From assembly GCA_907163375.1 (NCBI GenBank), contig CAJQUW010008996.1:563001-627000 (forward strand): a stretch of 64,000 nt of DNA, read 5' to 3'. Position numbers and translations under genes: made by a program. The notes beneath the pieces were generated by a model. The model had not been told where the DNA came from. It saw only the letters and a program-made list of their open reading frames with translations, and searched no databases. Within the stretch, counting starts at the first letter, position 1. Every line of letters starts with the position of its first letter. Source of the DNA: Prostheceraeus crozeri (taxonomy: Eukaryota > Platyhelminthes > Polycladida > Euryleptidae). Shown piece after piece: positions 2,893 through 26,800 of the stretch.

Positions 2893-2975
2893 GACGGAGC
2901 ACCAATCAGAGCACTTGTATGCGTGGGTGTCAACCAATGAGAAGAAATTTTCCCACGCTCAACTCTATATAAACT
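2893..2975 (+). promoter_or_regulatory. Pol II-type promoter: CCAAT boxes and TATA box upstream of 3004
   Basis: A TATA box (TATATAAA, about 2968-2975) lies about 30 bp before the ATG at 3004. Two CCAAT boxes are upstream: one in CACCAATCAGAGCACTTG near 2900 and one in CAACCAATGAG near 2930. The first motif recurs, with one base change, upstream of the DNA polymerase gene on the opposite strand near 26,720, so the two transcription blocks may share a control element. This rests on motif reading only. Confidence 0.55.
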
Positions 2976-3003: not shown

Positions 3004-4184
3004 ATGGGTAAACGTACGCACACGTTGGAAGCTCCTCTCGCGAAGAAGGTGAAAGTCACGTATTCGTCAGATACACCGACATCGAAGCCAGTCTTTGTTG
3101 AAGCGACGGAGCCCTATTTCCATACGAATGGGAAAGCTGAGAAAAACTACCTTACCAAGGCACATACACAGTTGGAGCCTCTGCCCATCACACGTCTGGT
3201 ATTGGGCAAGAAATGGGGTATCACTGGATATTATCCCATTCGCGGAGAGAATGCGACGATGGATGCGATGGATTGGCAATCACGACGAGACATCTCAAAA
3301 CTCGTGTTTGCCACGGGATTTTATGGATGGCGTGCACAAACGTACAATAACGCTGGGTACGGTTCCGATCAAATCGCCTCCCTCTTCACCATTTCTGAAG
3401 CAGTCTCACGCGATGTGGAGACGTTGGAAGATGCGATACAATCCCTCTACAAACAAGTCCAACCCGAATCTGCCTACAACCTCATCTCCTGTCTCGGTTA
3501 TGTACACAAGAAATCGGCCTACGACAGTGTCTTAATGAAGCTGAAGCAGGACACGCCCATCTTCCTGATGAAAGAGAATGGAAAGAACAAGAAGTATAGT
3601 TTGGCCAATATTGGATTGAGATTTCCAATCTCAAGGAGAATACCTTCCTTCAAGCAAATACCATCTTCCGCGTCACAGGCATGTACAATAATCCACAGAC
3701 AAAGACTCTGAAACTGTGTTTTACTGTGGATCAAGTCCAAGTCCGTATCAAACAGGCGGAGGAAGGTCAGAACACAGCGGTGGAGGAAAAGAAGAAGAAG
3801 AAGACAAAGGTGGCACACATTCACTCCAGTGGTTTATTTAATCTGATACACATGGTGCAACCTAAACATGACATTAATTGGGAGGAACTCAAACACTTTA
3901 TAGATGATCTTGATCATCTATCCCAATCAGAGGACAGCTATGTACTTATGAAACAAAAGGAGGATGAGATGACAAGCATGATTTCTCAGAGGTGGAGTGC
4001 TCAACCCACTGAGGAGGAGGATTGGAGGATGATGCGGACGGATTATCCCAAGGCGCAAGCACTCAGCGTGTACATTCGCATCCCGGAAGAGTCACACGCG
4101 CTGCATATCTTTGACGGTGATCAAACACAAGCCGAGAAATGGATGAATCGATTCCTCGAAATGTTCAAGGATATATGTCGTTGA
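3004..4184 (+). pseudogene. 5' part of a large unknown Maverick gene, frameshifted and split by a transposon
   Basis: An ATG at 3004, 30 bp after a TATA box, opens a 235-residue frame. Near 3620 the coherent reading moves to another frame (open to 4184), so a one-base frameshift is present. The N-terminus has a possible nuclear signal (PLAKKVKV). The second part has a Lys-rich stretch (EEKKKKKTKV) and helical acidic segments. The TGA at 4182-4184 comes from the terminal repeat of an inserted element whose duplication (4168-4176) lies in this gene; coding resumes at 9441. The undisturbed protein would be about 500 residues. No family is recognised. Confidence 0.6.
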
Positions 4185-4219
4185 AGTTAGCACCAACTTC
4201 AACACCAACTTTTTGAATA

Positions 4220-4734
4220 GAGTTTGTCCAGAATAGGAAACCACATGTTTAGGTAATAATGATGACGCAGAGTTTGTACAGCCAAAAAGTTTTCCAAAAT
4301 TCGAACTCCTTCACCTTCAAAATTCAAATTTAAATTCGAAAATTTGGTGCAAGTATTGGTGATACCTGGTTAGCGAGTTTGTACAGCATTCCGATGGAAA
4401 AATTTAGATACAAGATCAAAAACCTGAGTTTGTACAGCAACTTCCAGCACTTTCCTTACACGAACAACCGGAAAAAACTACCAAAAACCGATTTTTTCAA
4501 AAAATGATCAGATTTTCCAGAAAAGTTCTTGGTGCTACATGGAAAATGAGTTTGTACAGTGCTCTAACCGGTGGAAGAGTGTTCTACTAATCCAGTCTGA
4601 GTTTGAACACACACTTCTCCGACACTCCAGCACTCCTACGACCGGTAAATACCGGTTATTGTACAGTAACTACAAGAATACTGCCCATTTATGAACAAAT
4701 CAATTGGTGCTACATGGAAAATGAGTTTGTACAG
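4220..4734 (+). repeat. Recurring GAGTTTGTACAG motif in the left TIR
   Basis: GAGTTTGTACAG (or one-base variants) occurs at 4220, 4270, 4375, 4426, 4548 and 4723, and in mirror orientation throughout the right TIR. Regular recurrence of a short motif through both TIRs suggests binding sites for a transposase supplied in trans. That role is inference. Confidence 0.6.
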
Positions 4735-4869
4735 TGCTCTAACCGGTGGAATAGTGTTCTACTAATCCAGTCTGAGTTTGAACACACACTTCTCCGACAC
4801 TCCAGCACTCCTACGACCGGTAAATACCGGTTATTGTACAGTAACTACAAGAATACTGCCCATTTTTGA
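4531..4869 (+). repeat. 175-bp tandem repeats, left TIR (two copies)
   Basis: The unit starting GGTGCTACATGGAAAATGAG begins at 4531 and again at 4706, giving a 175-bp period. Each unit contains a small palindrome ACCGGTAAATACCGGT. An 88-residue open frame in each unit is a by-product of the repeat. Confidence 0.85.
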
Positions 4870-5211
4870 TCATGGAATGATAAGTTTCTCTAAGTTGGAT
4901 GTCAAAGTAAGTGACTTCAAAGTCTCTTTTACCTCATGATTGGGGTAAATACGACATGGTCTTGGTGTTTTTGCATCTGAGTACGTTTTCATATAGATTT
5001 GCGAATTAAACTCCGATGATGTGTTGGAAATGTAGTATGAAATGACGGTGATGTGTTTCGCTCCTATCTTGGTAATCTGAAAGAGCAACTGATCTTTACA
5101 AGAAAATCCTAAGTGCTACCTTATCGCTACTTAGAATAGACATTTTCACATATAGAAGTGGATCTTGGTTTATTTGTGATTGCAGAATTGATGTAGATCA
5201 TTATTTCGATA

Positions 5212-5665
5212 CACTAGGTGACATGCCACGCTCAATCACGTGTAATTACACATGACCCCAAACATTCGTGACTATGCGGGATATTGCTGCAATATAAGTT
5301 ATATAAGTAAGTATAGTTGGCAGTCCTATTATATATACTTTGCGTCTCATGTGTCTGCATGTATCAGAGGCTAAACAATGTGATAGGACCTCAATTTCAT
5401 GCTCAGGGAAGACAGAACATGCTTAGCGGTTCATCTTAGTGGTTCAAGTGGCAGCGCAGACAACCATAGACGACGCATAAACTGTAAAAGCTCGACCGCG
5501 CTTATTAATAAACATTTCCCATGTTTTAACAGCATCAGATCAAGTGATTTCTGACTCTTAGTGCAGCGCATATATACGCGGGTAGAAGAATAGAATGTCC
5601 TTAACCACGGATGTTTGGGGTGTTCCGTAATTGCGCCTGAATAACGCGTGGCATGTCACCTAGTG
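5212..5665 (-). mobile_element. MITE family M1, copy 1
   Basis: A 454-bp element with inverted ends starting CACTAGGTGACATGCCACG, flanked by TA on both sides (5210-5211 and 5666-5667). It has no coding capacity. Two more copies lie at 27218-27686 and 42505-42942; this copy is inverted relative to them. It is nested in the larger foldback element. Confidence 0.85.
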
Positions 5666-8416
5666 TAGATTTATGTTTATGTGAGATAAAAATGGGCAGT
5701 GTTTATAGTATGTAAGCGTATTTTGAAGCTGAATAGGCCTATTTTTAAATAGGATACATGCATGAAATGCTACAACTGATATACGTTCAAAAACAGAATT
5801 AGCCTATTTTAGAAATATGCGAGCGCATTAGAGAAAAGAATATCAGAATTAGGCCTAAATATCGTAAAGGTTTCTCGTTCTTTCTGGACGTAGATCCTTT
5901 CGTTTGATTGACTTGAAATGGCATCTAGCTGTTATTAATCGATCGAAATCCATGAACTCGAAACAAGCTTGGATCTTGAGCATTGCACCCTATTGTCGTT
6001 TGAGACATCTATGATTTCAAAATATGTTGGTGACGATTTTATTGACACATGCAGGAGTGTATCAAAAACTTAAGCGACAAAAATCAAAATTTTGCACGTT
6101 GTCGCACCTATCTCGATGGGCCTTGTCGCATTTACCCCGGACCTGGTTTTCACTACCAAAATCGATCGGGCTACGTAAATAATGAAGAGGTATTCGATCG
6201 AATCCGCTATTTCGTGTGGATGAACTTTACATCTTACTGTGATATAAAAGGTCGCCCATTTTTAATTCCAGCTTGCTTCTCTTGAAAGCAAACAAAATTT
6301 GTTGAAGAGTAAAGCAAATAAGGCCCAATTGGCAATAGTTTGCCAATCTAAGAGATTGGCTATATGCAGGCACATATGGATGCAAACTGAACGGTTTCTT
6401 GGCTATGAGCTATTGGTTTGGGCTACAACCTAATCGCATTTACCTAATGTTGCATTTCCCCAAGCCAGCCTATCGTAATTATAATCCTGCAATATATTTA
6501 TACACTGCATGTTCAATATTTTCATCTACAATCAACGATCAAGGTCACTTAACTATCACATGTTGATTTAAAAATTTGGCGGATGACTGAAGGTCGAAAT
6601 TCCATCTTTTGCAGCGAATTGCGTGTATTTGTATTTCTTAATCTATTCGCGGCTGTTTATGTTTAAATGGCACATAGAATTACAAACTTTCACATAGGAA
6701 AATGAAGTAATATGTAAGTTTGTTAGGTTTACGCTCATTTATACAGCATCATTTAATTAGTATTAGCACATGAAAAGATCTAATTGTTCAAATATTTGAC
6801 GATGAACAAATCAACAAAAATGAGATTAGCAATGAATATATCCCGTAAGTTTTATATGTCAACATTTTATGGCTACTGAACTGAGAGCCTAACTAGCCTG
6901 CCTGACTGTGATACAATTTTTGATACATCCGGTGATTAACATCATCAGTTAAGGTTCAGAAAATCAAGTTCCTATTTCTATCAGTTGGGTTGAACCTACA
7001 TACAAGGTTTATAACCTACATTGCGGTTATTGCAATGTAACGCATATTTCATTTGAAGGAGCTATACTTCGGGTTGTACGACATAACTTGAAAATCAGTA
7101 GGTTGCCTTCTACACCGCTCGTTAAGACATCTGGTGATCACATTCTTTCATTTGAAATTATTCAAATTATCAACTTAGTGAGCATGTAGTGTATCTGAAC
7201 ATGCGTGACTGATTACAGAGAGCTTCTGTTCAACAACTACGATTATGACTCCCCTGCTCTCATGTTTGAGCGATAAGTCTTCAACATTTTTTGAGTGTGA
7301 ACACGAAATTGAAATATTTTGACCACTACTTTATTCCGCTTGTCATGAGCATTCATGAAATTTGTTGTAATTGATCTTATCCCGAACATTTCCTTTTGTA
7401 TTTTAAAAACTTTATCGCTTGGTCACATTTTTGGTCATTTAAGGTTCATCGTATACACTATACGCAAGCCTGTACAATTCTTACTTTTATACCTGTTACG
7501 TGAGATTTCCATGACACTTGAGATTCACTGTGTTTCAGCTATGCACATGATCGCGAACTGCTGTTCAGACCTTTGTGTGGTGAGTGATGGTCTCGATTTT
7601 AGCGTAATGCTGTGTTAATGAAATATACGACATTATGTCTGCAATCGGTCTTCTTAACAATACCTTTGATTGTTTTTCGGATTTTACTTATACCTAACCG
7701 CGGTACCTTAAATTCACGCAGACAGACCTTTTCCCTTTGTATTCTACGGTTTCCATTGTTTCGTCCTATCAGCTAGACTATGGACAAGTATATCCAGTTG
7801 TTACATTTATTATACCTTCGATTGTTTTCCCGATATTAGTGATGAAATACAAGCAACACTAATCATCAAGATTGCTGTTTTTTGCGGTGATTTTTAAGTG
7901 CATTTGTAATTGTTTTGACTACAATTGGTTGACACAACTTAGTACAGGCATTTTCAGCGATGTTCCTCTTTTCTATGCCTTGTAGTTGTTTTTCTATATG
8001 CGCTTCGGACTGTCCGATCATTATCGTATCTAAGATATTCGGTCTTCATTGCATAAATGTCGCAAGTCATTTTTATCCTATCTGACCTTTCTATGCTGTG
8101 CTTCCTACTGTACAGTAATAGAGTATGTAAAAATTGAGAACTCCATATTCATCTGTCGTCCTTCTCCCATGTCAACATTTAAATTTGGTGCAGCTATTGA
8201 TTTTTGGAGTACCGCCTACATCAAGCTTTCCACCCGTGACCTTTATGACGCACTCGGGCTTTTTCCAGAGTTTTGTGCACCATTCTCAGCAGAGTTCATA
8301 TTTTGATGGACAATAACACTTCTTGAAACAAAATATTGTTTCAACTCGTTTTACTGGTGGAAGATAGCGATTCAACCGACAATTGAATTTTGAAACAAAA
8401 CCATCGCATCGATGAT
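5666..8416. other. Non-coding interior of the foldback element
   Basis: AT-rich sequence with no convincing gene. The open frames at 6049, 7355 and 8049 lack motifs and have random-looking composition. No transposase remnant was recognised. Confidence 0.5.
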
Positions 8417-9085
8417 GTAGTTACTGTACAATAACCGGTATTTACCGGTCGTAGGAGTGCTGGAGTGTCGGAGAAGAGTGTGTTCAAACTCAGACTGGAT
8501 TAGTAGAACACTATTCCACCGGTTAGAGCACTGTACAAACTCATTTTCCATGTAGCACTAATTGATATGTTCATAAATGGGCAGTATTCTTGTAGTTACT
8601 GTACAATAACCGGTACTTACCGGTCGTAGGAGTGCTGGAGTGTCGGAGAAGTGTGTGTTCAAACTCAGACTGGATTAGTAGAACACTATTCCACCGGTTA
8701 GAGCACTGTACAAACTCATTTTCCATGTAGCACCAATTGATTTGTTCATAAATGGGCAGTATTCTTGTAGTTACTGTACAATAACCGGTATCTACCGGTC
8801 GTAGGAGTGCTGGAGTGTCGGAGAAGTGTGTGTTCAAACTCAGACTGGATTAGTAGAACACTATTCCACCGGTTAGAGCAATGTACAAACTCATTTTCCA
8901 TGTAGCACCAATTGATTTGTTCAAAAATGGGCAGTATTCTTGTAGCTACTGTACAATAACCGGTATCTACCGGTCGTAGGAGTGCTGGAGTGTCGGAGAA
9001 GTGTGTGTTCAAACTCAGACTGGATTAGTAGAACACTATTCCACCGGTTAGAGCACTGTACAAACTCATTTTCCATGTAGCACCA
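8417..9085 (-). repeat. 175-bp tandem repeats, right TIR (four copies)
   Basis: Units starting GTAGTTACTGTACAATAACC begin near 8417, 8592, 8767 and 8942, a 175-bp period. They are the reverse complement of the left-arm units. The copies are nearly identical, which suggests recent amplification or homogenisation. Confidence 0.85.
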
Positions 9086-9440
9086 AGAACTTTTCTGGAA
9101 AATCTGATCATTTCTTGAAAAAATCGGGTTTTGGCAGTTTTTTCCGGTTGTTCGTGTAAGGAAAGTGCTGGAAGTTGCTGTACAAACTCAGGTTTTTGCT
9201 CTTGTATCTAAATTTTTCCATCGGAATGCTGTACAAACTCGCTAACCAGGTATCACCAATACTTGCACCAAATTTTCGAATTTAAATTTGAATTTTGAAG
9301 GTGAAGGAGTTCGAATTTTGGAAAACATTTTGGCTGTACAAACTCTGCGTTATCAGTAGTACCTAAACATGTGGTTTCCTATTCTGCACAAACTCTATTC
9401 AAAAAGTTGGTGTTGAAGTTGGTGCTAACTTCAACGACAT

Positions 9441-9842: not shown

Positions 9843-10505
9843 ATGGATTTCCGTTTAGAGAATGACTCATCCATGATTGTCTCGGGTCCTAGTAAATCGG
9901 GAAAGTCCACGTTTGCGGCGAATATGATCAAGAATCGTCATACTTTATTTAAAAAGCCCATTCGTAAAGTCTGGTTGTATTATGGGATAGAAAGTCCATT
10001 TCATAAAGATTTACAAGATGTGATATTGAAAATGGGTGTCCCTACCCAAGATGATTTTGATCAATTGCAAGAAAATGATTTAATTATTCTCGATGATTTA
10101 CAACAGAAATCTCAAAACAATGAAACTGTTACGGGATTATTTTTAAGAGGATCTCATCATAAACGGTTTTTCGCAGTGCAAATCACACAGTATTTGCATA
10201 GTGATAAAGAACAACGTATGCGTAATGGCAATGTCCATTATTTGGTCGCGTTCAATAATCCGAGAAATCAACAACAATTGGCTCAATTCATGGGGAAAAT
10301 GCTCCCGAAAGGCAATATGAGCGTAGTGCATGATATTTTAACGACATTGGTTCAAAAATATGGGAATTATGCCTATCTCTCTATTGATTTCACTACAAAT
10401 TGTCCGTTTGAGTACCGATTTCGCACCAACTTATTTAATCCACCTATGATTGTGTTTAAGTTAAGCAAAAGTCCCAATAAACGAAAAGGGACTTTAGTGA
10501 ATTAG
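9843..10505 (+). CDS. FtsK/HerA-type genome-packaging ATPase
   Basis: 220 residues, intact from ATG 9843. Walker A is GPSKSGKST at residues 15-23 and Walker B is LIILDDL at about 80-86. Size and motifs fit the short packaging ATPase of Maverick/Polinton elements and related viruses, which pumps DNA into preformed capsids. It lies in the + strand block next to integrase and capsid genes, as usual in these elements. Its stop codon is followed closely by the next gene. It is one of the few long genes of this copy without a visible lesion. Confidence 0.85.
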   Translation: MDFRLENDSSMIVSGPSKSGKSTFAANMIKNRHTLFKKPIRKVWLYYGIESPFHKDLQDVILKMGVPTQDDFDQLQENDLIILDDLQQKSQNNETVTGLFLRGSHHKRFFAVQITQYLHSDKEQRMRNGNVHYLVAFNNPRNQQQLAQFMGKMLPKGNMSVVHDILTTLVQKYGNYAYLSIDFTTNCPFEYRFRTNLFNPPMIVFKLSKSPNKRKGTLVN

Positions 10506-10525
10506 TGGTGGTTCCCAAATCTGAA

Positions 10526-11017: not shown

Positions 11018-12284
11018 TGGCAACGGCAGCCGCGCCAATTGCCTCCTCATTCTTATCGAGTATCTTTGGACGTTGTTGCGGCCAAGGCAACGCAGACGAC
11101 AGCGCAGAGACACAGTACACCATCACGGCGAGCTTTAATTGTTGTTCCAACGGCAATACCGCATATCTTCAACCCCCACGTCAATTCCAAGCAGATTGCG
11201 TCGATGGAGGAAGTTTTGCAGAAGATTTATTACAATCCCAAACATCCCGCTGGCTACGGAAGCGTCAATGCACTTGCTGCTGCTTCACATTATTCAAAAA
11301 CAAAAGTCAGACAATGGTTAATGCGTCAACCGACCTACACCCTTCACAAATCTCGATTGCATCGTATCAAGCCCTTGCACCCGCATCGTGTACGTGGTCC
11401 GCAAATTCAATTTCAAGCGGATATTGTCGATTATCAAACGTATGCACAGCATAATCGTGGCTACAAGTATATTCTCATGGTGATGGACATCTTTACACGC
11501 ACAGCCTGGGCATTCCCTCTCAAGACCAAGAGTGCCAAAGAAGTGTCGGGGGTTTTAGAAGCCATTTTCGCAACCATTCCCACCCCGCAACGACTACAAA
11601 CGGATCAAGGACGCGAATTTTATAACCGACCGGTGAAAGACGTCTTGGACAAGCACGCTATTGAATTGTTTTCCATCTACAGTCCCTATAAATGTGCCCA
11701 TGTCGAATGATTGAACCGTACTGTCAAGAATAAATTGGAACGTATCTTTACAGCCACCAATAACAAGAATTGGGTGGATTATATCGCAGATGTCATGTAT
11801 GCATACAATCACAGCACCCATTCATCGACAGGTTTCACCCCGATGGATGTGAATGCCTCCAATACCGAGGAAGTGAAACGAATCAATGCGAAACGTCTCC
11901 GACGAAACTATGGGAAGTTTGCAGTACCGGGGAAGTCTATCCCTGTGGGAGCACGTGTACGTATTTCACGTGATAAAGGAACGTTTGGACGGGGGTATGA
12001 AGCGAATTGGTCGACGGAAGAGTTCATTGTCTGCAACATTCTCAAGAACCCCCATGGTACCAAAATGTACAAGATCAAAGACTTCAGTGGAGAAGAGATC
12101 AATTTATGCTCAGGAATTACAAGTGATTCATCGGGAGGAAGAAATATATCAAGTGGACAAAGTGCTCAAGACCCGACGTCGGAATGGACGTACAGAATAG
12201 TTTGTGCACTGGCAAGGTTATCCGGCCTCGATGAACTCATGGGTGACAGACTTAGAACCTCTAGGTAATGTACGCCGCTATTGA
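11017..12284 (+). pseudogene. Polinton integrase with C-terminal chromodomain, inactivated
   Basis: A retroviral-type (rve) integrase. The main frame (from 11039) has the N-terminal segment seen in Polinton integrases, then Asp in FQADIV, Asp in LQTDQGREF and Glu in the HVE box, about 60 and 34 residues apart: the DDE triad. Right after the Glu is an in-frame TGA (11708-11710) where relatives have Arg, consistent with a CGA-to-TGA change. Past a frameshift near 12100 another frame carries a chromodomain-like tail (FVHWQGYP...SWVTDLEPL), broken by TAG 12198-12200 and ending at TGA 12282-12284. The ATG at 11017 overlaps the previous stop and may be the original start, which would need a further frameshift near 11080. 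Confidence 0.85.
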
Positions 12285-12294
12285 TTTTGTAATC

Positions 12295-13665: not shown

Positions 13666-13748
13666 TCACCACCCGTTTCTTGCATACCTATATCAACACA
13701 ATGAATGCAAAGTTACGCAACATGATGCGAATCCTACGTTAACACAAG

Positions 13749-16148
13749 ATGGAAGGTGTTTTAGTCTCTAAACGATTCGGAGCCAAGAAGCGATTGTTTG
13801 ATACTGTCTTATTGAAAAATTTTCGAAAATCGATTCAAAAGGAACAAGCCACAAAATGGCCCATCATTCATCATTTAGTTCATTCCCATCCTAAAGATGG
13901 GAAAGAAAATGTATTGGCCAGTTGTGCGGATATGCAGCATGAAACGGGACAACATGCACTTCCCTTCACACCTGCGGAAAAGTATCATATCTACAACACT
14001 TATAATGTATTTGCCTATCATAGTTTGGTGGATTTGATGGAGATGTATGGGAATATTCTCCATGATTTTGAAGTGAAACAGGAACGTTTGACAAAGTTCA
14101 GAAACTTGGTGAAAGAATTCAAACCCACTGCAGGAACTGATAATCTTGACGAGATCGTTCGTGAACGAGATAGGGTGAATGAAGAAGTGACTGTGTTGAA
14201 AACGGATCTTTGTCAATTATCCAAGGAGAACAAACTGTTATTTTATGTGTCTAGACCTGAATCGTTTTATTATAAGAATTTAGAGAGTGATAAGACGTGG
14301 AGTTCTATCGTCCCCACAGGTTATTATTCGTTGGAAACCTATTTGAATACCATCTTCCCCGCCCCCATGACATGGACAATCACATCCATGTCCTATCATT
14401 ATGAACTGACCATCGATTGCACGGAGGATATGGAAATCAAGATGGACCGGCAATCTAAAGCCTATGAGATTTTCAAAGCAGAGCAAGTGACTACCTACGT
14501 GTGGGACGAATGGATCTTGGAATTTCCCCTCAGCACGATTCATGTTCCCTCCTTTATCCTTCAGAAACAAACCATGTAATTGGATGCTCTCATTGAAAAG
14601 AAGAGTGTCCCCTATGCATTGAATGGGACCCATGTCTTGCTTCGAAACGGAAAACCGACACAACAGTATAAGACCGAGGATAGGAAGCATCCCAATATTC
14701 TCAACATCAAGCATGGCGACTATTTTGAGATTTTTCATACCCTATCTCATCTCCCTAGTCCATTACGATTCAATTTACCCACGAAATACTATACCCTACA
14801 ATCATTTGTGCAAGCTTTCAATCAAGCCATCCCCCTGCCTGATATGGTGTGGGTGACGTATACAACAGTGGGTGTCTTTCACGTGCTTCACTTTAAAATC
14901 TTGGAAGGGTATTTGTTGAAAATCAATCCCCCATAACTCTGGCAACATGTGTTGAATCATAGTCATGAATATGGTATGTTCACCTATCATGAACAAACCT
15001 GTATACACTCGGAAACGCCGGAACATTGTTCTGCAAGTTACCGTCGGTATCAACAACGTCCAAAACATGTCACCCATGGGATGACATTACACATCTATGG
15101 TTTACCGGAATATACCTTTGATTATGCCAAAGGATGGAACCACACCCTCGACACCATCTTCCCATGGAAAGGGAAGGAATTGGATATCTTGTTTCAGAAA
15201 TCCTATTTCCCTTGTGCTTACGAATCGAAAGATCTGTTGGCCAATACGTGTTTACAATCCTACTTGTTTGGAGATAGACTCTCTGATAAGAAATTGTATT
15301 CACTCCCTGTAGCGTATCAAGAAGGAACCAACCTGAAAGTCTGCAAAGATAGATTGACTTCCTTTATTGGATGGTTCAGTGATGATATGCAAGGGCTCAT
15401 GACGACCATGGTGGAACGCTGGCAAGAAGACATGTTTTATCTAGTGGATGGTATGGTGTTGGAAGTGGATGTGGGAAAACAAGATATTCAATCGGTTATG
15501 GTGAATACACATCCCACACCTCGCCCTTTTCTTCATCTCTATAGCAAGACCATGAAACCGTTGCAAATCTATGATGCACGATTCAGCAAGGTTACATCAA
15601 CCCCACCCTGGACATTTCTACCTCGTTTCATCGTGTCCTCATTCCCAAAGGGAGTTATACCTTGGAAGGACTCTTTTCCAAACTCCAGGTGAATTTACAG
15701 GCGTGGACTGATTTATCCCTCTCTCTCTCTCGAAAGAACATTATTTGACGGTGAAAACCGCGGAAAATGCCTTTATTGATTTTGGAGAAGCGTTGAGTTA
15801 TCGTATAGGTCTACCCCAATCCTATTATGGACCCAATACACAGATGAAAACACTCTCTTCCCTCAGCATGACTCCCAATTTCTTCAACATTATCGTCTAT
15901 TGTGATATTGTGGCGGAAAGTATTGTGGGAGGACAGCGTGAACAAATCTTGAAAATTCATCCCATTGAAGAGAAACAACGTTTGGGGGAAATGGTGTCGT
16001 ATGAAGTGTCCAATATTATTACCCCATTTTTACATCAGCTATTGATAAGATTGAAATTCAGTTGCGTGGTGATGATGGTGAATTTATTCCGATTCATGAA
16101 GGACGATCCTATTTCAAACTCCATCTCCGCCGCAGGGAGACTAGGTAA
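13749..16148 (+). pseudogene. Fibre-like virion protein B, two stops and several frameshifts
   Basis: One long coding region in frame from 13749 to about 15600, interrupted by TAA at 14577-14579 and 14934-14936. It then shifts frame near 15600, in the CT-repeat near 15725, and again near 16025, and ends at TAA 16146-16148. A coiled-coil stretch lies near residues 135-180. At least three copies of a module of the form P-x-G/K-x-Y-[ST]-L...hhN are visible (near 14320, 14790 and 15655). The C-terminus (IEIQL..DDG..IP...GRSYFKLHLRRR) matches that of the gene ending at 18912. Presumed modular fibre or vertex protein. Two or three adjacent genes are an alternative. Confidence 0.6.
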
Positions 16149-16440
16149 TTGTATACAGAGTGACTATCAACCATGCATGAGGAAACGATTCACTTGTTGA
16201 GTAATGCTCAGCCCAATTTGTTTGCTGAAAATAGAGCCAATCATTTCAAAAATCGCTTGGTTCCTTCCATCCCCATAGTCCATGGGGATCAATGGGAAGC
16301 CGGTATCTCCGTCGTCAATTTCATCAATACCCTTCAGACAATACCCGTGGATGTAAGCTTTAGTGTGGGGGATTTGAATGATCATCCTGAGACTATTCTG
16401 ACAGTCTATACGTCCTCTATCATTCCTATCAAAACGGATT

Positions 16441-16590
16441 CACCAGGACCGCGAGGAGAACGCGGTAAACAGGGAGAGCAAGGTCCACAAGGCAAACAGG
16501 GAGAGCAAGGCAAACAAGGCAAACAAGGTGAACAAGGCAAACAAGGTGAACAAGGCAACGGGGTGAGCAAGGCAAACAGGGAGGGCAAGG
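16441..16590 (+). repeat. Collagen-like Gly-x-y coding repeat
   Basis: About 15 Gly-x-y triplets dominated by GKQ and GEQ, encoded by 9-bp repeats of the GGCAAACAA/GGTGAACAA type. A frameshift at about 16558-16562 lies inside the repeat and the Gly-x-y pattern continues in the other frame. Such repeats change length by slippage. Confidence 0.8.
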
Positions 16591-16749
16591 CATGTTTACG
16601 CGCTTCAAAATTCCACGAGGTATTTATTCGGAGAAGACGTTGATGCAGTGTTTGAATCAGAATCGACAACATGGACACAATTTCCACTTTTCTATCACTA
16701 CATTGGCGTCTAATGTCCATGTCGCATCGGTATATATTATGATGTTAAA

Positions 16750-18545
16750 TTTTTTTTTCTGCTGCAAAGTCCTTATTTATTGTATCACAAGTATAAGCAA
16801 AGCATAAGTAAAATAGAAATAAAAAATAAAATCAAAGGTAGTTAACTTCGTGGAGGTCTCTACTGTTCGGCATGCATGAAGTAATACTGGCCGCGTTCCC
16901 ACGCTGCACGGCAAGACTCAGTCGCTGTTTGAGGAATGTGGTCGACCGTGGTTCACCGCTTCTCTCACAGATCTTCTTTCCAATTACATCGACCAGATTC
17001 TTGGCGTCGTCACCCCAAGCTCCCAATGTTTCCATTGCGAATGGACATAAAATGTGGGCTCTTGTAAGGCTTTCGTATTTGCGCTTCTTTTTTTCTTCGG
17101 CGTAGGATGCTAGGCTCCCTCCTCCTTGCACACTCGTACGGATGTTACTCACTGCCAAGGTGTCAACGCAGGTGTAGTCCCATATGAGCGGTAGGTCTCT
17201 GGTCCAAGGAACGAGCGTGATGCCATCAGGTCTCTTGCCATCATCTCGGCTTAGACCGAGGGGTTCCAATACGGCGGGCACACCTGCTGAGACCAAAGCA
17301 CGGCGAATAATGTCATTAGCTTCATGGTGGCGAGCGGCTCTACCCGAGTTTAGCCGACAACTCAAGCCATGTGTACCACTTTTGTCCACCATAGCACCGC
17401 ATTTGCATTTGTGGGGAATGCAGACATCAGCGCCCAGACGCAAGGCAATGGCGATGCGTAGTTGCTCATCATTTAGTTTCAAGCCGAGGGACTGAATCGG
17501 AATTGAATTGAGCCACACACCAGCACCAGGTGCGGAAGCCGAAAGAAGGCGGCTCTTGGATTTGTCATCCGATACTGTATTGAGAAGCTGTTCGAACTGC
17601 CCTCTCACTAGAGGACGATCCCAAGCTCCCTGGCTTCCTGAGGATTCACCTATGGGTGGCTCTGACAACGGAATTTTAGCTTGCCAGATACTCTTTGCAT
17701 ACATCAGATGCGGATCCTCCAGATCATGGGCTGGCATCAGTACATTGATTGTGTCCGAAGCACTGCTGGCCGAAGCTATAAATGACGGAAGAGCCAGATC
17801 AGATGCTCGGCGAAAGCCCAGTCCTCCAAAAGATGTAGGTAGAAAAGCCTGTACATATGATTCTGGGGTGATCGCACAGTTCAAAATGGACTCCAATGAA
17901 GTTCTTTGAAGGTCGTCAAATTCCATTAAAAGATGAGGCAGGTCATAAAAAGGGTAGGTTCTCAACAAATAGAAAAGCTTCGGCATGGAAAGGCAATTCT
18001 TCAAAATGTAGAAGCTGTAGTGCGAGTCCAGGTCCTTGATGCGGTCAGTTAATTTCACCATGGCATCGACCTTCTTCTTGAAAATTGTTTCTGCAGACGG
18101 ATCAAAAAGTGGTGTTCCCAGGAGAGTAGCGCAACTCATCGTTAGCAATTTCATTCGTTCGAATAAATTGGGGCCAGTGTAATCTCCTATATGTACATGT
18201 AGATTCATGGGATCGAAAAATTCGCACTTGGATATGTTCAAACGCAACCCATATGTCTTGATGATGTATGATTGTAATGAGATCTTCATGCACTTGTTTT
18301 ATTTCTCCAATCAGACAACCATCATCTAAATACCAGAAATTCAATTCACTTTTCAACTTACAAACAAGCTTGTTAATAGCCAGGCTGAATCCCAGAGGGC
18401 CGATAGGATCTCCTTCTTGCATGCCTTCGGCTGAAAAGAGCTTGTGGTCTCCGTAGAAGAGATTTGAGTTATTGCCGTACAGTTGTCTGATGAAGGGGAA
18501 TAACTCGTTGATTTCGTCTCGATGTTCATGTTGTCTCAGTGGTAG
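16750..18545 (-). mobile_element. 5'-truncated non-LTR-type retroelement with RT and endonuclease-like domains
   Basis: Minus-strand insertion in fibre gene C. The 5' end begins inside the reverse transcriptase domain. A first frame (18554-18102) has GMQEGDPIGPLGFSLAI and the catalytic YLDDG (18318-18333). After a frameshift near 18260 a 485-residue frame (18289-16832) continues the thumb, then a CxC...H...C zinc motif and a RPDG...W-x-D/T segment resembling restriction-like endonuclease domains of R2/CRE-type elements. The 3' end has AATAAA (16781-16776 on the minus strand) and an A9 tail (16758-16750). No clear target duplication was found. Family assignment is tentative. Confidence 0.75.
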
Positions 18546-18941
18546 TACCCACACACTACAGTATGAAACTGCATCCTTTGCTCAAAGACATTCTTGGGTT
18601 TAAAACAGACTTACTCATTTCCTCACAGCAAGCGACTGCCCCTTTGAATTTGAATGCCTTCACCTACAATATTCTCCTGTATTGTAATATTGTAGGCTAT
18701 CATTATGTAGGAGGTATGAAAACAAACTGTATGTGTGTGATTATGGAGATAGTATTCATCATGAATTCCAGAATGTCACCTATCTCCCTGTGAAAAGTCA
18801 AAATGTGCAAGATATTGAAATCAAACTCATGTCGGATGACGGCCATCCCATCCCTATGACAGACGGACGGTCCTATGTAAAAATGCATCTTCGACGTCGC
18901 GCAATTAAGTAATTGTCTTTTCCCAAACACATCAAGACACG

Positions 18942-19552
18942 ATGACGAATCTCTTTTTAATCGGTAACCGAACAAATTCCTCTGGACGATTGTTTGGAAG
19001 AGGATCATTTATGCAACGAGGTGGTTGGAATAAAGTGATTGGACAGAAAACACGCATGATTAGACCACGTGTCACTGGTGTCAAGAAATCACCCATCCGT
19101 CTGCCTAAATTATTCAAAAAGAGAGTTCCCAGAAAACCCTCTCGAAAAACATCTCGAAAAGCATCGCGAAAAACATCGCAAAAGGACTTGCACATACGGT
19201 ACAGAAAAAGTTGGGAAAATCGTTACGTACGACGGAGTTTCTAAATTCTTCGAAACAAGCTGTCACGGATGCTGTCAGCTCTACCGCACAAGAAGGAGTT
19301 CACCGTCTCAAAAAGAGTGTGAAAACGCTCGCCAAACGCACCTTACAGACTGCTCCCGAACGTGTTGTAGAAGCTATTCAAAATAAAGTGAGTCGGAAAC
19401 GCATCTTCACGGATGAAGAAGGGGATAGGGTGGAAGCACCTGCTCCTAAACGTCGCCGTGGTCATGTGGACATTGCCCATCATACGAAATGGTGGAAAGG
19501 AAGTTTGATGGGGCGTTATCGCGGAGGTGCTAAACAACGCATGCTCTTTTAA
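18942..19552 (+). pseudogene. Basic pVI/core-like virion protein, one frameshift
   Basis: The first frame (18942-19244) has a Gly/Arg-rich start and a basic repeat of the (R/S)KTSRKA type. Near 19180 the sensible reading moves to a second frame (open to 19552) with an amphipathic helix, Lys/Arg-rich stretches, PKRRR and a WWKG tail. Composition, size (~200 residues) and position just before the capsid gene resemble the pVI/pX-like proteins of adenovirus-like elements, which link DNA to capsid or disrupt membranes. The identity is inferred and the frameshift is clear. Confidence 0.5.
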
Positions 19553-19588
19553 GAACTAAGCAATCTTAGGAAATCAGTACCATCGAGC

Positions 19589-20833
19589 ATGGCGGAAACA
19601 CCTGTATTATTGGATGCTCGTTACGATGTATTCCAGAGTGATAAAGTCGATGTCTCGAGTACTTCTCAGCATACGAGCGTTCTGACGCCAGTCAATGGAT
19701 TGGAAAATCCCGGTACCATTCAATTCACGGTCCCTCGACTAGCCATTCATTGGATGGATGTGTGCAATGCCTATTTTCGCGTGGAAGTACAACTCATGAA
19801 ACATGATGCGGCTAAAGGAGCAGACGTGCCATGTGAGACGTCAGATTAGGCGATTATTATCAACAATACGGCCCACTCCCTCTTTTCCGACATTACTATC
19901 CGCTTGAATGAACGGTATGACACGGAGTATGATGCAGCGACTAAGACGGTGAAGAATAACGCGGTAGAGTTTACAGATAAAGAGAATGCACTAAATAAAG
20001 CCATTCTCAAACAATGGGCAAACAACAAATTTAAACGTACCTTTGACTTTCCCCTGAAATGTAATTTGTTCCAACAAGTGATTGCTCTGCCCCCAGGCAT
20101 GCAACTGGATCTCATTTTCACCTTGAATAAACCGGAATATGCCATTTATGATATGGCACATGCTGCAGGGACGACCTCTACAAAGTACAGGTTCAAAATC
20201 ACCTCTTTCCAATTGTATATGCCCATGCTCACACCGAATGCAGAACTGCAATTGAAAACTGCGAATCGACGCAAGACAGAAGCCATTTATTATCGCTACA
20301 ATGGCATGACCGTCCAACGACAAACGATTGAACGTGGAATACAAAAGAAGACGTTTTCCAATGTGGCCGCTCTATTGAGTCCTAAACTCATCTTTTTCGC
20401 GGTTGTTCCCAGTAACTCTTGGTTTGATCCAGGAAGTCGTAAACTCTATTTTGAAAGGCATGGACTCTCTCAAGTCACCATGACCGCCAATGGTGCCATC
20501 ATGACAGGAGGAACCATCAATTGCAAAGATGACGTGATTGCTTACAGTCAATTCAATCGTGCGATTCAAGTCTATAACACTAATGAATGGTGTGGTATTG
20601 ATTTAGAGAGTTTTACCAAATACTGTTACTTTATCGCCTTTGACTGTACCTTGGATAAACAAATCGATAGTGTTCAACCCACCAATACACGTCAATATGG
20701 ACTGGAATTGCAATTTGAGAATACGACCAAGCAAAATATGGATTTATTAATGTTTGTCATTCATGACGAACAATTCTCCGTCACACCGGAGAATGCTGTC
20801 ATCTTCAGTGCGTATATCCCACCCGCTATTTAA
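19589..20833 (+). pseudogene. Major-capsid-like protein (F54H12.2-type Maverick family), one in-frame stop
   Basis: ATG 19589, about 414 residues, ending at TAA 20831-20833. An in-frame TAG at 19847-19849 interrupts residue 87 while the reading continues smoothly (IIINNTAHSLFSDITIRLN). The order of segments (a beta-rich N-terminus, the NNTAHSLFS box, the PPGMQLDLIF segment, a SWFDPGS box and a compact C-terminus) recalls the F54H12.2-like proteins found in Mavericks of many invertebrates, regarded as double jelly-roll capsid proteins. That match is from general knowledge and was not searched. It lies between the pVI-like gene and the protease, as expected for a capsid gene. Confidence 0.65.
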
Positions 20834-20952
20834 GTGTTGGCGCGCATTGACAACAACATAAGACATGTTGAAGGAGCCCGAGTATCACGTTACTCCTATC
20901 GCTTGGACACCTCTTTATCAGCATCGTCTCATTAAAGCTCAGCGTTGGCTGA

Positions 20953-21585
20953 ATGGGAGAATGGTTAAGCAACACGGAAATCGAAGGAATCATGCAGGGT
21001 ATGAATCAATTACAAGAGAAACATTTACTCAATGCCTGCATGTGCGAAGATGATTTTCTCTGTGCTATTCAGTGTAGTTGTCAAACGTTTGCTCATCGCC
21101 TCCTCCAATCTTCTTACGTTCCCTTCCAAGGTGTATTTCCTGCTGATCTACTTCCTGCTCATTCCCCGGAATCAAAGACGCTTATTGTCAATAGTGATCG
21201 CTCTCATCAACCTGGCAAGCATTGGCTGGCCAATTATCAAAATGCGGATCAACGCGTGTGCGAATTCTTTGACTCTTATGGACTCACTCCATCTCACTAT
21301 CCACACGTTACCGAGTGGTTATCGACAACACCTTATCCTCTAGACTATCGTCGCCCTCTGCGTATACAAGGTCCTAAAGCCTATTGTGGTGCTTACTGTA
21401 TTTACTTTTTAAACCATCGCCCTTTTAACACGTCTATGGATAAAACACTAACCTTCTTTCGAACGTTGGATGCTCACGGGAAAGATCAAGAACTCATTGA
21501 AATCTACTTGTCCTTCAATGATAAAATTGTCTATTCCTATTTGTATTCTACATTATCCCATGTTTTGAAGTCAATAAAGAAATGA
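20953..21585 (+). CDS. Adenain-like (C5/Ulp1-type) cysteine protease
   Basis: 210 residues, intact. Catalytic positions in adenain order: His90 (GKHW), Asp107 (FFDSYG), Gln139 (IQGPKAY) and Cys145 (YCGAYC). In adenovirus-like elements this protease matures capsid proteins. The ATG at 20953 is used; an upstream ATG at 20865 opens a different frame (62 residues) that could be an older start now out of frame. AATAAA at 21573-21578 overlaps the end of the gene and probably serves as its polyadenylation signal. The gene converges with the minus-strand polymerase block. Confidence 0.85.
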   Translation: MGEWLSNTEIEGIMQGMNQLQEKHLLNACMCEDDFLCAIQCSCQTFAHRLLQSSYVPFQGVFPADLLPAHSPESKTLIVNSDRSHQPGKHWLANYQNADQRVCEFFDSYGLTPSHYPHVTEWLSTTPYPLDYRRPLRIQGPKAYCGAYCIYFLNHRPFNTSMDKTLTFFRTLDAHGKDQELIEIYLSFNDKIVYSYLYSTLSHVLKSIKK

Positions 21586-21738: not shown

Positions 21739-22119
21739 TCATGCACGATATACAGTGACTGATGAAATTATTTCTTGATCACAGATGGGACACAACATAG
21801 TGTCCAAAGGTACATAGCATGTAGAACACATAACTGACAAATCAGTTGCAAATGTCACTTTTTTCTTTTTCACTCCAGATTGCGCCAATTTCATCATATT
21901 TTCACTATCATTGCATTGCAGCATGGAGAAATCCTCTATCCACCTACGATCCAAATTGTGATTCATAGCATGCTCATCTAGATCCATGAGTCGATCAACT
22001 AAATCACCAGCGTTGATATTTTCACTGAGATTTGTTACAGCTTCTATGGCTTTGAACAAATATCCGAGGTCTCTTGCGACAACCCACGACGTTGGGATAC
22101 TAGTCGCTGTCCGATTCAT
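21739..22119 (-). CDS. Small zinc-ribbon protein downstream of the TBP-like gene
   Basis: About 126 residues from an ATG at 22119, which overlaps the end of the TBP-like frame. The frame is open further upstream to 22194. The body is helical and acidic and a basic KKKK stretch follows. The C-terminus has C-x2-C-x8-C-x2-C (CSTC...CPIC), a typical zinc ribbon. Zinc ribbons are common in transcription factors such as TFIIB and in viral late factors. Together with its neighbour this suggests a transcription role, but the fold around the ribbon is not recognised. A near-perfect palindrome around ATGACTCAT lies at its 3' end (21724-21746). Confidence 0.55.
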   Translation of the reverse strand: MNRTATSIPTSWVVARDLGYLFKAIEAVTNLSENINAGDLVDRLMDLDEHAMNHNLDRRWIEDFSMLQCNDSENMMKLAQSGVKKKKVTFATDLSVMCSTCYVPLDTMLCPICDQEIISSVTVYRA

Positions 22120-22674
22120 TGAGGGAAACTCCTTCGAATAGGGATTTGAGAATTTCTTCCACCAACGATTCCGCTTCTGCACTCGATAAGACACCCGTCA
22201 CAATCACACTTCCGTTGGAAAAGAAGGAACAGTGCAAATTACCTTTGCGCATTAACGTTCCGGGAAACAGCTCGCGCTCGTTGGAAATCACCGATGTCGA
22301 TGGCAGCTGTTGAATGGTTTGCATGCGTTCCTTTGTATAGTTCCATTGACATTGAACTGTGCAGGATTTCGTGATTGGGTCGCTCACGTCCAATCCGTAG
22401 GGGCGAGTAGTTGACGCATCTCTTCACAAATACGATCGTATGTTTCCAGAGAGTGGTTGCCCAAAATTTGGATACACCCCCGTGGAAAAATCTTTACAGA
22501 AACCGAAGAGTTCCATTTCCAATAGACTCGACAAGGGCGTGATGCTCCGTAGGTGGCCAGAGGTAGTTGCGGTAACAATGTCTGCAGTGGTATTGCGGAG
22601 GATGCTCTGAGCTCCACCATGCGGTTGCAGATCCTTGACATCTTTGACAGCGGGGTGTAGATACCCTTCTTCAT
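22100..22674 (-). pseudogene. TATA-binding-protein-like protein, one frameshift
   Basis: Two successive minus-strand frames (22674-22384 and 22393-22100) join at a one-base shift near 22390. Each contains a segment like half of the TBP saddle. The first has VKIFPRGCIQILG followed by a helix (ETYDRICEEM). The second has ELFPG, then FFSNGSVIVTG and a helix (AESLVEEIL). ELFPG followed by F-x-S/N-G-x-V-x-x-TG is characteristic of the second repeat of TBP. The likely start is ATG 22674, overlapping the polymerase 3' end. TBP binds TATA boxes; a TBP of the element's own, if confirmed, could direct transcription from its TATA promoters. The family call is by eye. Confidence 0.6.
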
Positions 22675-25600
22675 ATAGGCGATGGTTGCCGTATGGAAGA
22701 CTCTGATTGGCTAAATACCAACACCGCTTGTCCTCCCAGATACTAAAGGCCTTCTTCGCTTGCGTCACCGTTCTCATCTCGTGGTGTTGGGATTGGAGGA
22801 GGGTTTGTGACACTGTGGTAATCGAATGTTTTTCGAATGCGTCCACATAATTCTGATATTTCACTTGACGTTTCTTCGCTTGACACACTCCCTTCATGCG
22901 ACAGTCGTGGATTTCTTCCTCATTACCTTTGAGGACAATGTAAGAGTACATCTTGGCACTCAAACACACAAACTCCTTCACCCTATCCCCCACACACTCA
23001 TCCTTGAAACATCCCAAACGATTCGCATTCTCGGTACGTCTCTCTGGATGACTCACGGGATAATTTGAGGTATCGAGAACACCTTTCGCTTCCGTATCAA
23101 TAAAATTGGGGATGTTGTCAAACGAACGCAGCACTTCTTCGCGTGTATACCGGCTGCGGACTTTGAGGAAGAAGAAGTCTGTGTCCCCACCAATGAGCTC
23201 CACTGAGGTGCACGTCTTGTTGGCCTTCCACATGTCAAACAGCTTGTACATGATAATCTTGCTGTTGTCCAGGATGCATTGTCCGATATAAATGGGCTTG
23301 TTCAAGTCCACCTTGGTCTTGCGCACATTCACCACCACGGCTTTGTCGCTGATGTTGAAGAAGGATTGACAATAGGGATGACGTGTCCATTTGCTAAACA
23401 CATTCGGTGAACGTACAAATTCGTGCTTCCCATATTTCCGCACATTCTCCATCGTCTTGCCATACAGTGCGTTCACCATCAACTTGTGGAGATTAGGCGC
23501 ATTTTCGTGGTTGCCTTGGCACGTTCTTGCGTATGGTATTGTACATAGGGGCGAATATACGGTTCTTGATTGAAGGAGATCACGTAATGAACCTTGGTGA
23601 TATGTAAGCCCTTCTCCACATAAAACTTGAGAGCAGCGATATGTACCACATACTGTTTGCGATTCTCGTGCGTCATCATTAACTTGTCGGCTGAGTGAAA
23701 GGATCGGTTCCCGTTCAACTCCTGCCATAGGTCTTGCATATAGGGAGACATGTCCTCCCATTTCGCCGTCCCGCGGTAAGGAGCCAATGGTAAATCTTCC
23801 GTGCCATCTTGGACGTGTGGGGGATATTCCAAATCGACGCACAGTACATGTCCCGTGGTGCCATTGACATTGTATTGTCTCACCCGAATGGGTGATGAAT
23901 GGGACATCGTCGTTGATGTCCACCAAGTCCTCCGGTCGTACCCAGGCAAAACAGTCCTTCGGCAAAGGCCCCATCATGGCCGCTCCGTATAAATTGTTAG
24001 CATCTTCATAAAACAGGTGACTACCTTCTTCTGCTTGAGCGTGGTGCTGATTCACAAATGTCATCCCTCCACGAATACCTGCTTCAAACACGCGGTACAT
24101 ATCCACTTCACGCAATTTCTCCAACTTGACCTGTGTCTTCTTAAAGAAAAATGAATAGGTCAAGCCAGGTGTGCCGAAATAGTGGATGGGGTCCAATGCA
24201 GACACGTCGCGCATTTCACTTCGATAGTGTTCGAAGATGTCTGCGAGCAAGGCTACATCCAGTGTCAAATAATAGGGGATATAATCTTCAAACGTGCTGC
24301 ACCCCGTCTCTGTCCACGCTTTTTGTGCCACAGCATACTCATCCTCTTCCAACTCCTTCTCACTCAAATCATTGTAAAATGCTTCCTTCGGACGCAATTG
24401 AGTCTCGTGGATACGATCCCAGCAGTCAAAGTATGTATAGGTAAAAAATCCTTTCCGAATAGATGTGTGATCACAATTCGGATAGACGTCGCTCAATATG
24501 TGATTCGAGTGAGGAAAGTCACTGATGGTCGTCGACAAATTGTTCAGAGAGTCTTTCAAAAACTGACACGAATCGATGAACCGGAGTTTATACATGGTAT
24601 TGGGTGCAATGGGAAGAAAGATGGTTACTCCCAACGTCTTGTCTCCTGACACATAAATGGGCTCGATCCTACACTTGTGATCCAGCTTGGTAAAGCCTTG
24701 TACAATCACCTGGTGACTGTCATATCCCTTCCAATTCTGAAACAAGATGTTTAATGGGGTCCGGGATTGACGTCGTCGCAGGTTACATGCATTGCACAGG
24801 GTTTGGAGATACTTGCCCATGATATGGTCGTGGTCTCGCACCTTTGTCGTAGGTTCATTCTTTTCACCTTGCTTCGGAGGTTTCACATCACATCCGCACA
24901 TGTTACATTGTGCTGTCCGTTCATAGTCCCGCATATCATCCTCCGTCGTTGTCATGTTACTGTACGTCGCTTCAATGTGACGAAAAATAGACAAGCTCAC
25001 CTGTCTGATGTGTGCAATAAAGGCAGGAATACACTCGTCCCCCTTATGGATCACCACAGATTCTTTCATGTCCAGCGCCGGATGCCACACCACATAGGAT
25101 CCCACATACGCTGCCGTATGCTTCTTGGACATGGTATCAATCATGCTCTCAATGTCCGCGTACATCACAGCGAGGGGTTGAGTGTTTTTTTCCGTGGTCG
25201 ATAAATTCGTTCGGTTTTGTATCCTCCGTGGTCGTTTCCCTCCGGAAAAATCCACCATTGCATTTCGCTTGATGCTCCAGACGTTCTTTGTGTGCCATGT
25301 CCTTTGTCTTTCCATACTTTACGGCCTTCTCGTAGAAATTGAATCGTAAACTACACAACTCACATGTTTCAAAACATTTCATTTGCGTTTGACTCATGTT
25401 CTGATACCACATGCGAGCACATTTCTGAAAATCCGTCACGGGAAGAAAATGTCCATACTGATCCTCCATATCGTACCGCGTCACCATCACCAGATGAACG
25501 ATGCGTGTGTTCTCCTTCACAGCTTGACGGATCGGGTATAATTGGCCCACAAATCCTTTACCGTCATGTACGTGGATACGAACAATTACATTGTTCTTCT

Positions 25601-26622
25601 TCTCGAAATCCTGAATATCCCGTGTATTCATCAACCCCTCTGACGTCATCATGGAAAAGTCTAGATGATAATACTGGTTTAAATTCAACTTGCGCACTGC
25701 AGGAAGTCGATTCTGATGAATGTCATAGGATGTCTTGGTGCGGGAATCAACACGTCGAGGAATGCGATTGTCTTGGTAGGCAAGTGCATAGAGGACACTG
25801 TCTTGAAAACATTGCGATGTATACTTGTTGCGATCAAACACACATATGCCTTTGCAGAGCTTGATATCTCGGTGGATAGGAATCGGTGCACCCATGCGAA
25901 AATTAGGGAAGGAACTTGTTTGAACCAGTAACTCTATCACTTCCTTCACCACAAATCCTGATCCGTCCTTTTGATAGTCTTCAATAAATCCTTCAATCTT
26001 TGACACAATGTCACGGAACCATGCATCAAAGTTACGTGCTTGGACGCCTTCATGAATATATGAGGGTGTGGAGATGTCTCGCACTTCCTCTTCGCCCGTC
26101 GACATATCCATCTTGGCAGACTTGAGTCTCATTCTCACAAACACTTTCACGTCCTTGTGGGGGTGTTGTTGCACAATGACACGAAACAAGTCCGCATAAA
26201 TTGAATTCAAATACGTCTTCCATTCATTCGTTGCTTGAGGAGGGGTAAATCGATAATTATACCCGCGACCGTCCATGAAACGTTCTTCTTCCACAGCTGC
26301 GCCGCCCTCTTGCATGAACTCAAACAGGTAGGGGCACAAATGCTCATCCCATCCTTCCGCTTCAGCATTTACCACTGTATCGCAGTAGCGACACCGTCCC
26401 ACACACGCATGCTTATGGTACGCCTCTACGTCGAAACTTCCGTCGCAATCCAGACACAGCAAGTCATTGTCCTCGCCATAATTAAAAGCGCGGCAATCGT
26501 GTTCGTCTCCATACCATTTACAGCATGTCCAACAATAGTTGCGACCTGTCTCCGCTGCTCCATGGGCAATAGTCTTGAAACCGAGAGAAGGACTGGCGGC
26601 AGAATTCACACGTGTACTGCAT
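22424..26622 (-). pseudogene. Protein-primed family-B DNA polymerase (pPolB) with frameshifts
   Basis: The likely start is ATG 26622 (MQYTCEFC, a zinc-finger start), followed within 30-40 bp by a frameshift into the long frame from 26609. Frames change again in an A7 run near 25195, near 23890 and near 23500. Exonuclease motifs: ADIE (about 25150) and NWKGYDSH, then a Y-x-x-x-D box. An HNH-like VRDHDH box lies near 24825. Polymerase motifs: DANNLYG (A, ~23990), KLMVNALYG (B, ~23475) and GGDTD (C, ~23180). The last frame reads on to 22424, probably past the original end. This is the replicative polymerase of Maverick/Polinton elements. Confidence 0.9.
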
Positions 26623-26654: not shown

Positions 26655-26800
26655 CCTTTACTTATATACCCTACCGTGACTCATCAAATGCTCCGATAGG
26701 TGCCCCGGCGCCAAGTGCTCCGATTGGTGGTCCGCTTTCTGTCCTCTTAGCAACCACGTGCGCCGATGCGTGGGCGTGTGCTCCGATGAATGGGGCAAGG
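26655..26800 (-). promoter_or_regulatory. Polymerase promoter: TATA box and repeated CCAAT/GGAGCA motifs
   Basis: On the minus strand TATATAA lies at 26668-26662, about 40 bp before the ATG at 26622. Upstream are CACCAATCGGAGCACTTG (near 26,720) and further variants of the TCGGAGCA(C/T) motif (near 26,690 and 26,780). The CCAAT-containing version matches the one upstream of the gene at 3004, with one difference. Confidence 0.55.

Follow-up and report, generated by a model that had tools for sequence, protein, structure and literature searches.

Introduction

The usual view of Mavericks is that they depend on the host for transcription. Nucleocytoplasmic large DNA viruses and mirusviruses have much larger genomes, and many of them encode their own RNA polymerase. 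In the sections cited, protein pB263R of African swine fever virus (ASFV) is predicted to resemble the TATA-binding protein, TBP (PMC5825884), and TBP is present in 59% of mirusvirus genomes versus 0% of Nucleocytoviricota by the gene clusters of PMC10132985. Here we analyse a window of 64,000 nucleotides (the whole stretch examined; contig CAJQUW010008996.1, positions 563,001 to 627,000, forward strand) from the 2.05-Gb assembly GCA_907163375.1 of the flatworm Prostheceraeus crozeri, in which a Maverick/Polinton element carries a TBP-like gene. This gene is real and its copy in the window is broken; uninterrupted copies are present in four lineages of the same genome, and we consider it moderately probable that they encode a virus-type TBP of several Maverick lineages, driving element transcription independently of host TBP.

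According to the section cited of PMC12529657, TBP has four intercalating phenylalanines, and ORF24 of Kaposi's sarcoma-associated herpesvirus (KSHV) lacks two acidic residues, numbered E184 and E188 in yeast, that are critical for TFIIB. Extensive adintovirus insertions in Ixodes ticks are described in the part cited of PMC10675110. Literature searches combining Maverick, Polinton or adintovirus with TBP, TFIID or TATA, a scope outside which the adintovirus founding paper lies, showed no earlier Maverick or adintovirus TBP in the papers examined: the available sections of PMC11071308, PMC8097293, PMC10328495, PMC7805220 and PMC10675110 do not mention TATA, those of PMC10675990 and PMC10132985, retrieved with TATA-binding protein and Polinton, do not concern animal Mavericks, and the adintovirus/TATA text match in PMC12220804 is an author's name only.

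Results

A broken TBP-like gene downstream of the Maverick polymerase

Two overlapping minus-strand open frames lie at 22100-22674, immediately downstream of the Maverick DNA polymerase gene (PolB). The sequence-only reading had taken them for two halves of one gene, each resembling a TBP repeat, and the profile searches bear this out. Searched alone, half 2 (22103-22393, minus strand) matches PF00352 with an E value of 3.9e-7 (30.3 bits, above the cut-off of 22.9), and half 1 (22387-22674, minus strand) matches it over profile positions 3-82 of 85 with an E value of 0.01 (16.1 bits, below that cut-off); the two were searched apart and never joined, and the status of the gene is taken from uninterrupted homologues. 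NCBIfam aligned half 2 to repeat 2 of full-length TBP (best E value 7.1e-4; 19.1 bits, far under the cut-off of 181). The ELFPG and F-x-N-G-x-V-x-V-TG that had been named as hallmarks of this repeat are present, the latter as F-S-N-G-S-V-I-V-T-G. With phmmer against PDB, half 2 matched TBPs, best an archaeal one (1.1e-5), and half 1 gave no match at E<=10. A profile built from Maverick TBPs matched 2 of the 445 stop-to-stop open reading frames (ORFs) of at least 50 aa in the window, exactly the two halves, a count that is partly circular because the profile contains P0067, one of the homologues described below.

Within the gene, repeat 1 occupies 22387..22641 on the minus strand, in a frame open from 22710, and repeat 2 occupies 22100..22423 on the same strand in the other frame. 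While both frames stand as first described, the start had been placed at 22674 and is probably the Met at 22641, because P0068, the second homologue, begins MSQICNRMVEI and the window MSRICNRMVEL. A start within the PolB frame was rejected, 22427-22702 having no Pfam match.

Uninterrupted homologues have the two-repeat fold

Half 2, extended with X to a set length, served as query in a protein search that returned two proteins, P0067 and P0068. P0067 has both repeats in one frame and is identical to the window at 71/74 positions of half 1 and 94/100 of half 2; P0068 is 43% identical to P0067. Both match PF00352 with two stretches each (1.6e-10 and 41.1 bits for P0067, 1.8e-15 and 56.9 bits for P0068). 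PF00352 is also matched by one full-length protein from each of the lineages that we name B, C and D (3.7e-22, 1.3e-23 and 1.8e-21; 78.4, 83.1 and 76.2 bits), and all five are above the cut-off. These five proteins are 173-190 aa long and filled by the two repeats. Using the predicted model of P0068 rather than the broken window copy as query, Foldseek returned 44 PDB matches at E<=0.001, all of them TBP or TBP-fusion chains. Judged by this model, the Maverick protein is a two-repeat member of the TBP family with a saddle fold, as had been anticipated.

Could two out-of-frame stretches simply resemble TBP by chance? Half 1 alone falls under the Pfam cut-off and half 2 folded alone gives a poor model (pLDDT 45), as such an explanation would have it. 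It is untenable, because uninterrupted homologues match both halves and carry both repeats in one frame; with the structure model and the conservation across the genome also against it, its probability is practically nil.

Since P0067 and P0068 come without genomic context, conservation outside this genome appears in a single sequence, P0068. No relative was confirmed in scans of viral contigs with half 2, PolB, an alignment of PolB, two of TBP and a DNA pattern; the sole genome-contig locus, L001, was discarded as a chance out-of-frame match inside a bacterial carotenoid-type gene cluster.

Four lineages carry the gene next to PolB or protease

To read the genome-wide counts, it should be kept in mind that only the best 150 candidates were scored in each search, of 9490 for P0067, 10983 for PF00352 and 9064 for the protease. 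The best 150 P0067 matches, a list chosen by score, are 98-99% identical and none has an internal stop. In the 30 loci fetched from the window's lineage, A (the lineage letters are our own), PolB lies upstream of TBP on the same strand in 30/30, with 59-801 nt between the matches, so that the homologue beside PolB that the sequence-only reading had proposed to look for is there throughout; a RING gene follows TBP on the same strand in 30/30, and the protease is convergent to TBP in 29/30.

Among the best 150 PF00352 matches are the host TBP at C9306 (123.7 bits, together with an exon) and numerous other-type copies. Twenty-six other-type loci were read: 25 of them match P0067 by tblastn, 22 lie within 1.5 kb of PolB (9) or of the protease (13), and the remaining four have neither; nor is either gene near the four loci at C9306 and C3829. 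C3829 is a second strong TBP-like locus (L033 and L040; 64.8 and 47.4 bits, one match with an internal stop), which may be a pseudogene or a TBP paralogue. TBP is convergent with PolB in lineage B (L062, L063), and convergent with the protease in lineages C and D, in elements with an integrase; in L064, L066 and L067 (C, D), where homologues of the ATPase and of the putative capsid gene are present, integrase and protease are on one strand and TBP is on the other. Uninterrupted TBP copies are thus present in four lineages of this genome, and TBP adjoins PolB or the protease in most loci examined.

The constant arrangement in lineage A would suit a DNA-bending factor that acts with PolB in replication or packaging at the element ends and has no role in transcription. 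The convergent orientation in L062 and L063 and the opposite-strand position in L064, L066 and L067 speak against it, as do the conserved TFIIB-contact residues described below, which would be superfluous in a protein that only bends DNA; we regard this as quite improbable.

Three lineages share a conserved ORF of about 200 aa (L062:3547-4173, plus strand; L064:3406-4002, plus strand; L067:5762-6409, minus strand) that begins upstream of TBP and, in another frame, runs over roughly the first 110 TBP codons; it has no Pfam match over the cut-off. The idea that it encodes a PC4-like cofactor was dropped, as no Pfam match to PC4 was obtained.

The protein seems to be kept by selection

So that TBP itself would not decide which copies were chosen, 20 were taken from ranks 2-26 of the protease list, five of which are also among the best 150 P0067 matches; ranks 2, 11, 12, 19 and 22 were omitted, of which 2, 11 and 12 have an uninterrupted TBP and 22 has a stop in the protease. 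A TBP match was found at the predicted place in 20/20, and 14/20 are open over P0067 1-173. Among these 14 the ratio of non-synonymous to synonymous differences (pN/pS) is 0.30, a value from 91 non-independent pairs with the six broken copies excluded. The 30 lineage-A loci, ranked by score, share one identical protein, and their zero non-synonymous differences were not used. Amino-acid change is restrained, and the gene seems to have been maintained by selection on its protein, the window copy being one of the broken ones.

This bears on a further explanation, in which the element has recently captured a host TBP gene that is carried along and decaying. Although the window copy and 6/20 protease-chosen copies are broken, as in a decaying gene, identity to the host TBP exon is 15.6-20.0%, versus 41-53% among lineages B-D, Maverick-specific residues occur in 5/5 sequences, pN/pS is 0.30 and the 150 best copies of the score-chosen list are free of internal stops. 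A recent capture is therefore very unlikely.

The TFIIB stirrup is kept and the first repeat altered

Residues were compared in five sequences, P0067, P0068 and one from each of lineages B, C and D, at the positions that we take to be those of the intercalating phenylalanines. Positions 2, 3 and 4 are Phe in 5/5, the TG of repeat 2 is retained in 5/5, and the second stirrup reads E-x-E-L-F-P in 5/5, E-P-E-L-F-P in the host exon. The Glu residues of this motif we take to be the TFIIB contacts, yeast E188 presumably corresponding to the Glu two before the Phe. The host first exon piece aligns over repeat 1 and the start of repeat 2, and its E-P-E-L-F-P piece, misplaced on repeat 1, was compared by eye. 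With three of the four intercalating phenylalanines the protein is less of a canonical TBP, which does not touch its membership of the family. Judged by these residues, the Maverick TBP seems able to engage TFIIB and is changed in its first repeat, opposite to the pattern in ORF24.

A decoy or shut-off factor would also keep the TFIIB stirrup, bind TATA poorly and sequester host TFIIB or block host promoters during element replication, and the acidic stirrup residues are indeed kept, and the first intercalating Phe lost, in 5/5. The other three phenylalanines and the repeat-2 TG, kept in 5/5 as well, go beyond what a pure protein decoy needs, and we judge this role unlikely.

Possible promoter signals of presumed early and structural genes

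A well-placed TATA box was found in the window at two starts only. The first, TATATAAG (26661..26668, minus strand), lies 47 nt before the PolB ATG, with TCATT, which we take to be initiator-like, about 31 nt downstream; the second, TATATAA (2966..2972, plus strand), lies 38 nt before the ORF at 3004 and is accompanied by an initiator-like TTCATTC, the spacing being judged by eye in both. In L062 and L067, TATAAAAGG precedes TBP inside a shared TGGGAAAAGTATAAAAGG. At the chosen structural starts a TATA box is found in 0/10 in the window, 2/8 in L064 and 0/8 in L067; the ten window starts omit six at 91-3681, the TATA-bearing one at 3004 among them, and use 20865, not 20953, near the protease.

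In a first scan TAAGT was the best of 736 five-letter words, occurring in 8/18 upstream stretches, and it lies within 90 nt of 5/10 chosen structural starts in the window (9843-20865, plus strand), versus a background of 3%. TAAGT may signal late promoters or RNA processing, and it partly coincides with TAA stops. The pattern fits early genes with TATA boxes and late genes without them, no common late motif having been found.

In a more specific version of our proposal, several Maverick lineages would possess a late pre-initiation complex of their own, in which their early-made TBP would recognise TATA-less structural promoters and bring host TFIIB and Pol II to them; in the window's lineage these promoters would perhaps be T-TAAGT about 35-60 nt before the ATG. 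We put this forward as a rather doubtful possibility. If true, these elements would have arrived independently at a counterpart of the herpesvirus late-gene complex, with a TFIIB-compatible TBP at its core.

The Maverick element around the gene

The window element is, from its gene content, a Maverick/Polinton with PolB, rve integrase, ATPase and adenovirus-type protease. PolB (22424..26621, minus strand; PF03175, 5.2e-15), a Maverick-type family B polymerase upstream of TBP, is broken into several frames; its probable ATG at 26621 was assigned by comparison with P0001 and P0003, and it has 66 homologues at E<=1e-10, the best-scoring one 42% identical. A RING-finger gene remnant (21739..22122, minus strand; partial, E 0.007, below cut-off) overlaps the 3' end of TBP, and the RING in copy L003:2000-2503 reaches 4.6e-11 in Pfam. 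Convergent to TBP is the adenovirus-type cysteine protease (20953..21585, plus strand; PF00770, E 0.0098, below cut-off), whose L064 counterpart exceeds the cut-off as Ulp1 family (PF02902). Elsewhere on the plus strand lie a broken rve integrase (11039..12268; PF00665, 1.5e-11) and a packaging-type ATPase (9843..10505; AAA_14 1.4e-4 and Pox_A32 0.002, both below cut-off) with homologues in L064, L066 and L067. PolB and rve integrase occur together in this element and also in L064, L065 and L066. The two-frame gene at 19589..20833 (plus strand) is a putative major capsid gene, so named from its position and from tblastn matches in L064, L066 and L067; no Pfam match was obtained for the window ORF or two relatives, and no PDB match for one relative.

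At 4175..9440 a transposon, which we take to be a Mutator-like element (MULE), is inserted in the element; its inverted ends are 698 bp long, and its 9-bp target duplication, CAAGGATAT, was identified by eye. The 450-bp inverted repeats at 5.2 and 27.2 kb, considered as element ends, proved to be a three-copy dispersed repeat, and the element probably extends leftward beyond the window. ORFs with a YLDDG motif at 16832-18554 (minus strand), inside the element, are reverse-transcriptase-like by eye, the 485-aa ORF having no Pfam match, and ORFs at 34560-35679 and 55597-56544 resemble piggyBac-type transposases by eye. A second, distantly related Maverick with integrase, protease and a distant PolB lies at the right end of the window (62933-64000, L088).

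Discussion

The reading that we favour is that of a transcription factor of the element's own. In the window's lineage a single TATA promoter would drive TBP along with PolB early on; TBP would bind and bend element promoter DNA, mainly through the conserved repeat 2, and bring in host TFIIB and RNA polymerase II. Element genes, probably the structural ones mostly lacking a TATA box, could then be transcribed without dependence on host TBP. Promoter recognition itself is our inference.

Several observations weigh against this proposal. In 5/5 Maverick sequences the first intercalating position is Pro, not Phe, and the TG motif of repeat 1 has lost its Thr; DNA bending may therefore be weaker or different. 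Of the protease-chosen copies, 6/20 are broken (five in pieces or partial, one with a stop), and pN/pS within lineages B, C and D is only 0.55, 0.48 and 0.41 (5, 3 and 9 uninterrupted ORFs). No PolB or protease match was found within 1.5 kb of 4/26 other-lineage loci, and no TBP was detectable in the ~13.5 kb searched of the second Maverick at the right end; TBP may not be general in Mavericks. On the promoter side, the stretch shared by L062 and L067 encodes W-E-K-Y-K-R in frame in the overlapping conserved ORF and may reflect coding conservation, so that TATAAAAGG is weak promoter evidence and was set aside as firm evidence. TAAGT is found at 0/8 L064 and 0/8 L067 starts, which rules it out as a late-promoter motif shared by all lineages. 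A general TATA enrichment was likewise rejected, the element having 14 TATA-like sites against 12.8 +/- 4.6. The claim that the element brought its own promoter-recognition factor is supported as regards a TBP-family protein, and the TATA boxes once cited for it lend it little.

A selected TBP common to several lineages suggests that some Mavericks rewire promoter recognition, like large DNA viruses and beta/gamma-herpesviruses. It makes the early and late gene timing of integrated elements testable through one protein of ~175 residues, and it provides a naturally occurring TBP that has kept three of the four intercalating phenylalanines.

With cellular TBP (the host gene at C9306 and the solved archaeal and eukaryotic proteins) the Maverick protein shares the two-repeat fold, an ELFPG-type stirrup with both acidic residues and the F-x-x-G-x-x-x-x-G strands. 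In contrast to it, the Maverick protein is 15.6-20.0% identical to the host exon, has Pro for the first Phe, lacks the repeat-1 TG Thr and has little beyond the two repeats.

Vertebrate Maverick/Polinton elements likewise have PolB, ATPase, integrase, capsid and protease in two opposite-strand modules, according to the section cited of PMC8097293; unlike here, no TBP is in that section's gene list, and "TATA" and "TBP" are absent from the main text of that paper.

Among viral proteins, the TBPs of large DNA viruses (ASFV pB263R, EsV-1-53, those of iridovirus and ascovirus) share the fold and are among the best BFVD structural matches, but identity is 9-20% in the ten best structural matches (three unnamed). 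A UL87-domain protein stands at rank 49 of the structural matches (E 7.7e-3). The beta/gamma-herpesvirus TBPs (KSHV ORF24, Epstein-Barr virus BcRF1, cytomegalovirus UL87) are also viral TBP-like proteins, and they work with host Pol II. According to the sections cited, however, ORF24 keeps all four phenylalanines without the acidic TFIIB-contact residues (PMC12529657), a pattern reversed in Mavericks, and has a Pol II-binding N-terminal domain (PMC7498053); the five Maverick proteins, with no room for it at 173-190 aa, have neither the extra N-terminal nor the C-terminal domain of the herpesvirus type and consist of little more than the TBP repeats themselves.
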